The notes under the pieces: generated by a model
What the model was told of the DNA's origin: nothing
Seen by the model: only the letters and a program-made list of their open reading frames with translations
The model's database searches: none
Virus record (IMG/VR): IMGVR_UViG_3300028025_000998
Coordinates: 1-27,046 of that record
Length of the DNA stretch: 27,046 bases
DNA from: a virus
Reading direction: 5' to 3' (one strand)
Part shown: positions 4,149 to 8,246 of the stretch, piece by piece
Layout: each line of letters starts with the position of its first letter
Numbering within the stretch: the first letter of the stretch is position 1
Position numbers and translations under genes: made by a program

Positions 4149-4568
4149 ATGGGAGTTTATAAAAAGTTAATGCAAGCAAGATTAAAGTTACACAGCACAG
4201 AACTTAAAAAGTCTGGTCTGAATAAATTTGCTGGATACAAATATTTTGAGTTAGGTGATTTTATTCCTGCCATTCAAAAGATATTTGCAGAGCTAGAATT
4301 GTGTGGCATTATTTCATACGGTAAAGAACTTGCAACACTTACTATTACAGATATGTCAGATGGTTCACAAGTTTACATTACAAGCCCTATGTCAACTGCT
4401 GCTTTAAAAGGTTGCCATGAGGTGCAAAATTTGGGGGCGGTTGAGACTTACATTCGCAGATATTTATGGGTGACAGCCCTTGAGATTCTTGAGTCTGATG
4501 CTGTAGACGCTAGTGCTGGTTCTGCAACTATCAGAGTTAAAGATACTAAAGCAGAGGACTTTATCTAA
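4149..4568 (+). CDS. erf: ERF-family single-strand annealing protein
   Basis: From the ATG at 4149 the protein has 139 aa. It opens MGVYKKLMQARLKLHSTELK and then KSGLNKFAGYKYFELGDF, the signature of the ERF family, and ends with an acidic tail KAEDFI. ERF proteins pair complementary single strands in phage recombination, as Erf does in P22. GGGGAG lies about 7 nt upstream. An in-frame ATG at 4056, also with GGGAG upstream, would add 31 residues; family members usually begin at 'M-x-YKKL', so 4149 is preferred. The stop overlaps the exonuclease start (TAATG), a normal pairing of annealase and exonuclease. Confidence 0.88.
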   Translation: MGVYKKLMQARLKLHSTELKKSGLNKFAGYKYFELGDFIPAIQKIFAELELCGIISYGKELATLTITDMSDGSQVYITSPMSTAALKGCHEVQNLGAVETYIRRYLWVTALEILESDAVDASAGSATIRVKDTKAEDFI

Positions 4569-5170
4569 TGGAACAGCGTTCAGAAGAGTGGTTTCAAGCA
4601 CGACTAGGCAAGGTTACAGCTAGTCGTGTGGCTGATGTCCTAGCAAAGATTAAGTCTGGTGAATCTGCTTCTAGACGTAACTACAAGATTCAGCTAGTAA
4701 GCGAAAGGCTTACAGGTGAAAGGCAAGAAACATATGTGAACCAAGCAATGCAAGATGGAATTGACAGGGAATTTTATGCTAGGGAAAGATATGTGCAACA
4801 ATTCGGGGAAGTGGAAGAAGTAGGATTCATTAAGCATCCTACTTTGGAAGCTGGTGCTAGTCCAGATGGTATGGTGGGCGAAGATGGTATTCTTGAAATC
4901 AAATGTCCTATGGGAAGTACACATACAGAAACATTGATGACTCAAGATATTCCAAGTAAGTACATACCGCAAGTGCAATTTCAGCTTTTGGTGACGGGTC
5001 GTAAATGGTGTGATTTTGTTAGCTATAACCCAATGTTTCCAGAGCATTTACAGTTGTTCGTAAAGCGTGTGGAAGCAGACCATGTCTACCAAAAAGAGTT
5101 AGAGTCAGAAGTAAAGAAGTTTTTAGATGAAGTAGATGATGTAATCAATAAACTAAAGGAAATCAAATGA
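4568..5170 (+). CDS. YqaJ / lambda-exonuclease-family 5'-3' exonuclease
   Basis: The 200-aa protein begins MEQRSEEWFQARLGKVTASR, the typical YqaJ start. It has 'ARERYVQQFG' with E73, SPDGMVG with D100, and ILEIKCP with E110 and K112, together forming the D-x(n)-E-x-K metal site of the lambda Exo fold. Then come 'KYIPQVQFQLLVTG' and 'CDFVSYNP', also usual. It should resect duplex DNA to give 3' single strands for the ERF protein encoded just upstream (1-nt overlap). The acidic C-terminal helix overlaps the next start as ATGA. Residues are visible and the family is well known, so the assignment is secure. Confidence 0.92.
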   Translation: MEQRSEEWFQARLGKVTASRVADVLAKIKSGESASRRNYKIQLVSERLTGERQETYVNQAMQDGIDREFYARERYVQQFGEVEEVGFIKHPTLEAGASPDGMVGEDGILEIKCPMGSTHTETLMTQDIPSKYIPQVQFQLLVTGRKWCDFVSYNPMFPEHLQLFVKRVEADHVYQKELESEVKKFLDEVDDVINKLKEIK

Positions 5171-5394: not shown

Positions 5395-5631
5395 ATGGCA
5401 GAACAAAAGTACGATAACACTAACACCTTTACATTGTTTAAGAACGATCAAGGTGATAACCCAAAGAAGCCAAACTACACAGGCATTGCAAACGTAGATG
5501 GTATTGAGTTTAGAATTGCTGGTTGGATTCGTGAAGGAAAAAACGGTAAGTTTATTTCTGGAACGGTACAACTAAAAGATGGTGATGTGAAGCCTAAACA
5601 GGCAGAGGTAGATGAGGATGTTCCTTTTTAG
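5395..5631 (+). CDS. Small SSB-like protein with acidic DEDVPF tail
   Basis: The 78-aa protein has AAGGAG 7 nt before its start. It begins MAEQKYDNTNTFTLFKND, continues with 'YTGIANVDGIEFRIAGWIREGKNGKF', a run of short beta strands with aromatic and Gly-Lys turns, and ends EVDEDVPF. An acidic C-terminus ending in PF is the hallmark of bacterial SSB tails that recruit partner proteins. Proteins of this size and pattern are common next to phage annealase/exonuclease genes. A single-strand-binding role is inferred. It is the last gene before the pqqA-bearing gap. Confidence 0.65.
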   Translation: MAEQKYDNTNTFTLFKNDQGDNPKKPNYTGIANVDGIEFRIAGWIREGKNGKFISGTVQLKDGDVKPKQAEVDEDVPF

Positions 5632-5632
5632 G

Positions 5633-5653
5633 AACACCCTCTCTAAAGGTGTT
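5633..5653 (-). terminator. Weak hairpin overlapping the end of pqqA
   Basis: AACACC (5633-5638) pairs with GGTGTT (5648-5653) around a 9-nt loop. On the minus strand the stem begins within the pqqA stop codon; on the plus strand it begins 2 nt after the SSB-like gene. There is no clean U-run on either side, so at best it is a weak two-way terminator or RNA-stabilising hairpin. Confidence 0.35.
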
Positions 5654-5723
5654 ACTTGTTCATTACATACATTGTAACTTCAAAGCCGAAACGCATTTCA
5701 GCAGCTGCTGGTTTTGTCCACAT
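5652..5723 (-). CDS. pqqA: PqqA, precursor peptide of pyrroloquinoline quinone
   Basis: A complete 23-codon ORF on the minus strand runs from ATG 5723-5721 to TAA 5654-5652. The peptide starts MWTKPAAAEMR and ends FGFEVTMYVMNK. It has the same length as Klebsiella PqqA, with the conserved pair at the same positions: Glu15 and Tyr19 in the E-V-T-x-Y motif, plus W2, K4-P5, R11 and G13. PqqE with PqqD cross-links this Glu and Tyr; a protease, PqqB and PqqC then finish PQQ. AAGGA lies 7 nt before the start. The gene is opposite in direction to its neighbours and stands alone; no other pqq gene is in the window, so it must rely on host enzymes. Identity is secure from the motif; an effect on host methanol or alcohol oxidation is inference. 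Confidence 0.9.
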   Translation of the reverse strand: MWTKPAAAEMRFGFEVTMYVMNK

Positions 5724-5762
5724 GATTATGTCCTTAATAAGATGCAAGCCACATAGCTTGTA

Positions 5763-5796
5763 CTATTATTGTGAGCCATTACAGTAACAAAAGCAA
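5763..5796 (-). promoter_or_regulatory. Candidate pqqA promoter
   Basis: Upstream of pqqA on the minus strand two overlapping sigma70-like options exist: TTGTTA (5790-5785) with TAATAG (5768-5763) at a 16-nt spacing, or TTGCTT (5796-5791) with CACAAT (5773-5768) at 17 nt. Either would give a leader of about 30-45 nt, which would include all or most of a small CAAGC/GCTTG hairpin between 5744 and 5759. Both are weak matches. Confidence 0.35.
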
Positions 5797-5839
5797 CTGA
5801 TAAACATTTATATTACCCTAATGAAAATACGGAGACATT

Positions 5840-6202
5840 ATGGATTTTGATGACGATATAGTAGACTATGACGATAATAATAGACTTTCAGAACTACCAG
5901 AAGCTAAACTATTGATAGCAATGTTATACCAAACAATAGATGATGCTATGTACGTTCCTAAAAAGCATAAAAGAAATGCTACAGAAAGATCTGTAACAAC
6001 TTTGAAATCTAAAAATAAATTAGCTTTACGAGACAAGGTAGATGCTATACAATGGTTGTTTGATGATAACGATGTTTATGATTTATGTTGTGAGTTGGCT
6101 GGAATGAGCAAATACAACATCAGAGAGATGGTTATTAACAAAATAGGTGCAGATGTAATTATGCCTCTAGTTAGCGGATTCTATCAACCAAATGGACATT
6201 AA
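5840..6202 (+). CDS. 120-aa hypothetical phage protein, possible regulator
   Basis: The start has CGGAG 5 nt upstream. The N-terminus is strongly acidic (MDFDDDIVDYDDNN); then 'LSELPEAKLLIAMLYQTIDDAM' forms a helix, and near residues 70-97 comes KVDAIQWLFDDNDVYDLCCE and then LAGMSKYNI. The order of a leading helix, a 'D-x-W-L/F' segment and a 'CELAG-s-…-R' turn recalls a widespread class of small phage proteins with an HTH-like C-terminal part. I cannot name a function. It overlaps the following hydrolase gene by 11 nt. Confidence 0.65.
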   Translation: MDFDDDIVDYDDNNRLSELPEAKLLIAMLYQTIDDAMYVPKKHKRNATERSVTTLKSKNKLALRDKVDAIQWLFDDNDVYDLCCELAGMSKYNIREMVINKIGADVIMPLVSGFYQPNGH

Positions 6203-6802: not shown

Positions 6803-6938
6803 ACCACTCACGCAAGAACAAATAATTGATGCTTATAGTAAAGTTTTTCCAACTAGATATGAGCCAATGACAATAGATAGAATGATACAATTTGCAAGAA
6901 TAATTGAACAATTACATGGAGTTAAGTATGAAACCTAA
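6789..6938 (+). CDS. 49-aa conserved-type small phage protein
   Basis: This ORF lies between the 76-aa gene and the glycosyltransferase. It begins MVDYKPLTQEQIIDAYSKVF and ends MIQFARIIEQLHGVKYET. The 'FARxIExxHG' ending is a familiar feature of short phage proteins of unknown function. GGAGG lies 3 nt before the ATG and 6 nt before an adjacent GTG (6792), so either codon may be the true start. It overlaps the glycosyltransferase start by 11 nt. Confidence 0.7.
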   Translation: MVDYKPLTQEQIIDAYSKVFPTRYEPMTIDRMIQFARIIEQLHGVKYET

Positions 6939-7659
6939 TTTATTTATAGCAACACCAATGTATGGTGGTTTATGTTATGGCACTTATCTAGAGTCTATGC
7001 TTAAGCTACAGGCATGGCTTAATGCTAAAGACATAGACGCATACTTTTCATTTCTTTATAATGAAAGCCTTATTACTAGAGGTCGCAATACTTTAGTGAA
7101 TGATTTCTTAAAAGGTGATGCTACACACTTAATGTTTATTGATGCTGACATACAGTTTGAGGCACAACACTTATTAAAGATGATTGACTCTGACGTAGAG
7201 ATTATATGTGGCTTGTATCCTAAAAAAGAAATTAACTGGGGGGCGGTATCTTTTGCTATTGAAAAGAAAGTGCCACAGGATCAACTTAAATACTTTACTG
7301 GCGAGTATGTAGTAAATATGGTTGGCGATGTTGAGAAGCAACTTGTGCCATTAGATAAACCATTTGAGATTAAACATGGAGGTACTGGATTCATGTTAAT
7401 TAAGCGTGAGGTATTTGAAAAGCTAAAAGACAAATGTCCGTCTTATAAACATAATATGAATGATGTTAATGACAATTCAAATATGGGCGATAAGATTACA
7501 GAATACTTTACCACTAGCATTGATGACCAAAATCATTTATTAAGTGAGGATTATCACTTTTGTAAACTAGCTCGTGATAATGGCATTAAGGTTTGGGGTG
7601 CAGCATGGGCTCAACTAGGTCACACAGGTACTTATCAATTTAGTGGCAGGCTTGTATGA
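6928..7659 (+). CDS. GT-A-type glycosyltransferase
   Basis: From the ATG at 6928, with GGAG 6 nt upstream, the protein has 243 aa. A longer form from 6904 lies inside the preceding gene and is less likely. It starts MKPNLFIATPMYGGLCYGTY, then has RGRNTLVNDFL and MFIDADIQF with the D-A-D metal/nucleotide-sugar motif at residues 72-74. 'CGLYPKK', a 'HGGTGFMLIKREVF' segment and a closing 'SEDYHFCKLARDNGIKVW' are usual in phage GT-A enzymes. It should transfer a sugar to a glycan, protein or modified base; the acceptor is unknown. It is coupled by ATGA to an FkbM methyltransferase, pointing to a joint glycan modification. Confidence 0.8.
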   Translation: MKPNLFIATPMYGGLCYGTYLESMLKLQAWLNAKDIDAYFSFLYNESLITRGRNTLVNDFLKGDATHLMFIDADIQFEAQHLLKMIDSDVEIICGLYPKKEINWGAVSFAIEKKVPQDQLKYFTGEYVVNMVGDVEKQLVPLDKPFEIKHGGTGFMLIKREVFEKLKDKCPSYKHNMNDVNDNSNMGDKITEYFTTSIDDQNHLLSEDYHFCKLARDNGIKVWGAAWAQLGHTGTYQFSGRLV

Positions 7660-8246
7660 TTATTCCTAATAACATGATTAGCCATGTAGGTAAGATATTT
7701 CAAGGTGAGTATGCAATAGGCAAGGTAGATAACCCATATATTATTGATATAGGAGCTAATGTAGGGGGGTTTGCAGTTTGGGCACATGAATACTTTAAGA
7801 GCCCTAAAATTGATTGCTATGAGCCCATAAAGGCTAATTACGACCTATTGAGACAGAACATTGAAGGAACTGATATAGCTGTAAGAAAAGTAGCCATAGG
7901 TAAAGATGATGGTGAACGAATGATGTATTATGGTTTACATAATTGTGGTGAGGCAAGTATGTTTCAAGGTGAGGAGCAAAGAGCACAAGGTGAAATGGTT
8001 AAAGTTATGTCATCTAAACACTTGCCACAATGCGATATTATGAAGATAGATACAGAAGGTGCAGAGATTGAAATACTAGAAAACCTTGTGCATTTTCCTG
8101 ATATATTTTTAATAGAATTTCATAGTGCATACAATAGACGAAGAATAGATGAATTATTACTTGACTATACGCTAATAGAGTGTACAATGCGAGGATGGAA
8201 CTATGGAATACTTAAATATGTTAAATCTTCTTTAGTAGGAGTTTAA
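7656..8246 (+). CDS. FkbM-family SAM-dependent methyltransferase
   Basis: The 196-aa protein has the SAM-binding motif YIIDIGANVGGFAVWA near residues 28-43, an acidic 'CYEP' at the end of strand 2 (E56), and IMKIDTEGAEIEILENL near 128-144. These are the signatures of FkbM methyltransferases, which usually O-methylate sugars. The start overlaps the glycosyltransferase stop as ATGA (7656-7659), so the two are co-translated and may build a methylated glycan. Whether the target is host surface polysaccharide, virion protein or DNA cannot be told from sequence. Confidence 0.85.
   Translation: MIIPNNMISHVGKIFQGEYAIGKVDNPYIIDIGANVGGFAVWAHEYFKSPKIDCYEPIKANYDLLRQNIEGTDIAVRKVAIGKDDGERMMYYGLHNCGEASMFQGEEQRAQGEMVKVMSSKHLPQCDIMKIDTEGAEIEILENLVHFPDIFLIEFHSAYNRRRIDELLLDYTLIECTMRGWNYGILKYVKSSLVGV

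Follow-up and report, generated by a model that had tools for sequence, protein, structure and literature searches.

The window analysed here, a 27,046-base IMG/VR contig, carries on its minus strand at 5652..5723 a small reading frame that is a genuine pqqA gene, probably one of a tailed Methylophilaceae phage and set up as a small unit of its own that supplies the substrate for synthesis of the cofactor PQQ. We observed its identity as PqqA, its conservation in related phages, purifying selection on its codons, invariance of the two residues that are cross-linked, the absence of PqqE from the pqqA-bearing viral records tested and an upstream promoter element in common with host pqqA. Together this suggests that viruses keep their hosts' methanol-oxidising enzyme supplied while they multiply, although expression of the gene and its effect on infection are inferred.

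The pqqA gene and its locus

The frame runs from an ATG to a TAA and encodes the 23-residue peptide MWTKPAAAEMRFGFEVTMYVMNK. This peptide covers the whole of the Pfam PqqA profile PF08042 (39.2 bits, E 3.5e-11, against a curated cut-off of 21.1 bits) and matches the NCBIfam equivalog model TIGR02107 over its full length (39.1 bits, cut-off 20 bits), so a search with the PqqA-family models upheld the identity that an earlier note on this DNA had proposed. That note had also placed the minus-strand frame of 23 codons exactly, with a good Shine-Dalgarno site, and had read residues R11, G13, E15, V16, T17, M18 and Y19 correctly. Glu15 and Tyr19, the pair that PqqE cross-links, are present and three residues apart. 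The Shine-Dalgarno sequence AAGGA (5731..5735, minus strand) lies 7 nt before the ATG and is kept across the alignment of relatives. On the other side, between the convergent pqqA and single-stranded DNA-binding protein (SSB) genes, there is a strong hairpin (5609..5645, minus strand; −22.9 kcal/mol, z −5.4) that forms a conserved block in the alignment. It lacks a T-run and is not a canonical terminator on the minus strand, but a shared terminator or an mRNA-stabilising structure is possible.

The gene fills a short gap between the convergent SSB gene (5395..5631, plus strand; PHROG 18154, E 3.5e-13) and a divergent gene of unknown function (5840..6202, plus strand) that has no PHROG or Pfam match. 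Around it is a phage recombination and lysis module made up of an Erf annealase, a YqaJ/RecE-like exonuclease (4568..5170, plus strand; PHROG 149, E 2.2e-42), the SSB and an endolysin/cell-wall hydrolase, and virion proteins are found further along the window. Phage genes therefore flank pqqA on both sides, which supports the phage context claimed previously and meets one criterion for an auxiliary metabolic gene (AMG), namely that a host metabolic gene lies within the virus genome rather than in host flank. The contig is probably a fragment, since the nearest named relative, MW202481, has 41,219 bases. Downstream of the lysis gene, at 6904-8246, a PHROG 1574 protein of unknown function is followed by an FkbM-type methyltransferase, and these two genes are possibly involved in modification of surface or virion glycans.

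Relatives were gathered through the neighbouring exonuclease, used as the anchor of the locus, so that pqqA itself played no part in their selection. This exonuclease has relatives on 313 stretches in IMG/VR, and we used the best 80 of the 313. Four of the 80 could not be tested because the contig ends before the pqqA position, and in all 76 testable relatives pqqA was found at the same place and on the same strand, opposite to the exonuclease. The earlier note had named a lack of homologs at this locus in related phages as grounds for refutation, and the reverse was found. Contamination with host DNA is ruled out by the phage genes on either side and this 76/76 synteny.

Among the 39 distinct DNA versions of pqqA in the locus relatives, pS was 0.40 and pN 0.042 (pN/pS 0.105), and differences from the window fell mostly at third codon positions (119, 29 and 251 at positions 1, 2 and 3, respectively). 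The ratio was 0.131 for 103 distinct versions from other viral contigs and 0.121 for host copies, but these two sets were found with a pqqA pattern, which biases pN downwards. These values satisfy a further AMG criterion, purifying selection within the virus, both at the locus (0.105) and for the other viral copies (0.13). The profile match, the pN/pS and the conserved coding at the locus exclude a chance open reading frame. Other reading frames over pqqA are broken in most relatives, with one antisense frame being stop-free over this short stretch. An antisense gene is annotated over pqqA in MW202481, and we rejected it as two of the three antisense frames are interrupted by stops in most relatives and the third is merely stop-free.

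Methylophages and their hosts

A tblastn search of 50,697 phage records with the 23-residue peptide, a check that had been suggested for it, gave matches in Venkman, P19250A, MEP301, MEP401, MEP402 and four Melnitz strains, which makes nine records of isolates infecting OM43 or LD28. The only further matches were the spring metagenome phage MW202481 and two contigs named 'Acinetobacter phage MD-2021a'. The one of these two contigs that we examined was discarded as a case of phage pqqA, being a bacterial pqqABCDE locus; CAKLQF020000010.1 holds the pqqABCDE operon together with fur and ppk, and at least this part of it looks like bacterial chromosome.

In the isolate regions examined, pqqA is either unannotated or overlapped by a hypothetical protein on the other strand, and it is never labelled PqqA. 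Phage pqqA goes unreported in the papers on Melnitz, Venkman, MEP301 and MEP401/402, and the Melnitz paper mentions PQQ solely as a medium supplement. P19250A has been stated to have none of the methylotrophy AMGs (PMC7678222), but our tblastn search contradicts this, as the phage in fact carries an unannotated pqqA. Judged from sequence, then, pqqA is near-universal among methylophages as far as the records found can tell, being in every cultured methylophage record that we found (nine). Outside this count, MEP431-434, phiMB624-A, HIM624-A and Venkman EXVC038S gave no match, and are either not in the collection or without the gene. The isolates with pqqA span unrelated groups, including the T4-like Melnitz, the Zobellviridae MEP401/402 and siphophages, and the pqqA locus differs among these groups, from which we infer more than one gain or exchange of the gene.

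The peptide signature EMRFGFEVTMY occurs almost exclusively in Methylophilaceae genomes. When a degenerate pattern for the subtype was run on genome contigs, nearly all loci were labelled Methylophilaceae or consistent with that family; one short contig was labelled Flavobacteriaceae, which is probably a binning error. The host of the window phage is inferred from this signature and from the related isolates, the closest of which infect OM43/LD28 methylotrophs, and both support the methylotroph host assumed in the earlier note.

We found pqqA in 100/100 sampled Methylophilaceae genomes, with 1 to 12 copies per genome (median 4) and at least two copies in 97. PqqE above the cut-off occurred about once per genome and was present in 99 of the 100, meaning that a PQQ pathway for processing phage PqqA is available in the inferred hosts. 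Several pqqA and a single set of the other pqq genes have been described for Methylophilaceae (PMC4109929). None of 50 pqqA-bearing viral records, many of which are fragments, encoded PqqE above the cut-off, and we conclude from this that the phage supplies only the consumable substrate. Since the host multiplies the consumed peptide alone, phage pqqA extends a host habit. A PQQ-dependent alcohol dehydrogenase was found in one of the 50, a 72,356-base IMG/VR contig that may be compared with a report from Lake Baikal. No pmoC was found in 40 other pqqA-bearing viral records, but the control genomes also gave no match, so little weight can be put on this absence.

The upstream region of pqqA

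Upstream of pqqA in the window we identified a probable −35 hexamer TTGCTT (5791..5796, minus strand), in which the TTG is nearly invariant among relatives, and a probable −10 hexamer CACAAT (5768..5773, minus strand) 17 nt after the conserved TTGCTT, which is weak (4/6). For pqqA, a generic promoter scan found no signal exceeding chance and did not return CACAAT, so the evidence for a promoter is drawn from comparing sequences and not from that scan.

The motif T[AC]ATG[AG]TTTT is present in 52% of the regions upstream of pqqA in hosts and in 42% of those in viruses, as opposed to 0.1-0.8% in controls (control windows and other gene starts in the same DNA). In hosts it is often the dyad TMATGA-NNN-TCATKA (TMATGATTTTMMTTAG), which has the appearance of a site bound by some as yet unidentified regulator of PQQ synthesis. 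Of the 32 host promoters with the forward motif, 26 have the element 60 nt from the −10; among 49 viral promoters, 31 have it at 37 nt, and isolate MEP301 has CATAAT at 37. Host and phage pqqA thus have an upstream promoter element in common, and its spacing to the −10 is fixed. In five host genomes many element-matching sites were upstream of pqqA, and one was upstream of pqqB in Methylophilus methylotrophus, while the remaining sites in these genomes, with one mismatch allowed, were at about the level of a reversed-pattern control.

The case is weaker for the window itself, where the lineage has the full motif in only 3 of 38. What the window has is TTTTCATTAG (5818..5827, minus strand), which corresponds to the right half of the dyad found upstream of host pqqA and fits the host spacing, since the start inferred for the dyad lies 60 nt upstream of the −10. 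Among the 34 distinct upstream regions of the lineage that have the half-site, 27 have it at the distance of the host layout. These 34 regions are related sequences, the motif was derived from the same set, and the half-site adjoins or overlaps the 5′ region of the plus-strand gene at 5840 and may be under constraint from that gene too; for these reasons we regard the element as suggestive only for the window. It is an even bet, in our view, that methylophages near-universally carry a substrate-only pqqA on a host-regulon promoter element and so stay under host control of methanol oxidation. If this is true, PQQ supply would be a general bottleneck of methylotroph infection.

Proposed role and related systems

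In PQQ synthesis, PqqE and PqqD cross-link a Glu and a Tyr of PqqA and the other Pqq enzymes then finish the cofactor. Because PqqA itself is converted into PQQ, one peptide is spent for each cofactor made. We propose that phage pqqA would be expressed as its own unit, opposite to its neighbours, from its own promoter and Shine-Dalgarno sequence and with the hairpin at its 3′ end. Host PqqE/PqqD would then cross-link Glu15 and Tyr19 of the phage peptide, and the remaining host Pqq enzymes would convert it to PQQ, one peptide per cofactor, to serve methanol dehydrogenase (XoxF/MxaF), the main energy enzyme of the host. The enzymes may outlast infection while the peptide is spent, in which case a gene for the substrate alone could sustain PQQ when host transcription falls. 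Demand for PQQ is plausible, because in one OM43 isolate xoxF is described as the top transcript at all times (PMC5120137).

That dosage of a consumed peptide could raise flux without any enzyme gene is an inference that fits the data, and transcription during infection, processing by host enzymes, conversion to PQQ, altered host metabolism and a benefit to the phage are likewise inferred. There are points against this proposal. The hosts are already multi-copy for pqqA, so that one more copy might add nothing as long as host transcription continues. Only limited gains are summarised for overexpression of the whole pqq operon (PMC9851590), and the engineering papers offer no evidence that PQQ output is limited by pqqA dosage alone. 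In the window, the weakness of the −10 and the overlap of the upstream half-site with the 5′ region of the divergent gene also count against it.

PqqA has to bind PqqD/PqqE, so it is conceivable that the phage peptide is a competing decoy or inhibitor, binding these proteins unconverted and shutting down PQQ synthesis or methanol oxidation. One would then expect the cross-linked residues to be lost, yet Glu15 and Tyr19 are invariant in 76/76 locus relatives, neither having been required by the search, and phage peptides are nearly identical to host PqqA. Scans of 2.9 million viral contigs found no case of the same PqqA motif in which codon 15 begins with a base other than G and none in which codon 19 begins with a base other than T, whereas the normal E/Y motif is in at least 120 viral contigs of the same collection. 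These two scans span most, but not all, substitutions and this PqqA subtype only. Overall, we consider a decoy very improbable. It is also possible to see pqqA as a neutral piece of host DNA that is retained because it aids recombination or serves as an attachment site, with the peptide being irrelevant, given that the closest host copy has 94% DNA identity over 69 nt. However, synonymous divergence is high for that (pS 0.40-0.57, with pN/pS about 0.1) and does not fit the pattern of an attachment core, the searches of window proteins identified no integrase, and unrelated phage groups retain pqqA at different loci, leaving this explanation barely credible.

The upstream element is strongly common to host pqqA and also precedes pqqB in Methylophilus methylotrophus, which would suit a role in titrating or recruiting a host pqq regulator with the peptide being secondary. 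More than half of viral pqqA lack the full motif and still keep the peptide, though, and selection on the coding sequence is strong, so we find little to sustain that account. Somewhat less remote, but still unlikely, is a second role of the peptide in infection besides PQQ supply; it might, for example, act as a signal or modulate a radical-SAM enzyme of the host. In favour of this is a metagenome study in which a RiPP family annotated as PqqA was co-expressed with defence systems (PMC11118758), but among annotated phage records pqqA is confined to phages of PQQ-using methylotrophs, and the phage sequence tracks host PqqA.

The reading that we prefer, supply of PQQ substrate by the phage, has precedents, and phage pqqA as such is already known. 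The Lake Baikal T4-like viral contig VP_266, with PqqA plus methanol dehydrogenase, was reported in 2020 (PMC7678222), and pqqA is listed among the viral genes of reservoir sediments (PMC13188868), which corrects the remark in the earlier note that its author knew of no well-described phage pqqA. VP_266 also has a methylotroph-phage PqqA, read there as boosting PQQ for methanol dehydrogenase, but it carries methanol dehydrogenase and other AMGs as well, whereas the small methylophages here are usually substrate-only. The orphan pqqA of host Methylophilaceae has the same 23-residue peptide, invariant residues, Shine-Dalgarno sequence and upstream promoter element, and pqqA is amplified there too without enzyme genes (PMC4109929). 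The phage copy differs in sitting among recombination and lysis genes and, in most phages, in having the element 37 nt from the −10 instead of the 60 of host pqqA. Cyanophage psbA is likewise a viral AMG, and pmoC is one in methanotroph phages (PMC7674155). Both resemble phage pqqA as viral copies of a host energy-metabolism component, but they encode protein subunits of the energy machinery, in contrast to a ribosomal peptide that is consumed for a cofactor.

We found no earlier report of near-universality in methylophages, of the copies missed in isolates, of the substrate-only pattern or of the common promoter element, with the caveat that the literature searched was incomplete and priority is unproven. 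Coastal seas and lakes harbour OM43 and LD28 methylotrophs in abundance, with methanol dehydrogenase among their top-expressed functions, and providing a consumed cofactor precursor instead of an enzyme would be a different viral route to push metabolism. At 72 bp, pqqA is skipped by standard annotation, and the phage papers either name different AMGs or report no AMG at all. Surveys of viral metabolism thus count too few of the tiny genes for precursor peptides. The gene could also serve as a host-range marker for methylotroph phages.

Viral contigs also hold other PqqA subtypes; the core is D-L-R in 39 of these contigs and a different one in 20 more. A D-L-R type pqqA lies near tail fibre and ribonucleotide reductase genes in a 372,016-base IMG/VR contig, and pqqA adjoins a T4-like DNA polymerase gene in viral contigs of 144 kb and 70 kb. 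Enterobacteria-type pqqA was found near the ends of two viral contigs, one of them with lambda-like tail genes, and may belong to host sequence flanking prophages that had inserted close to the gene.
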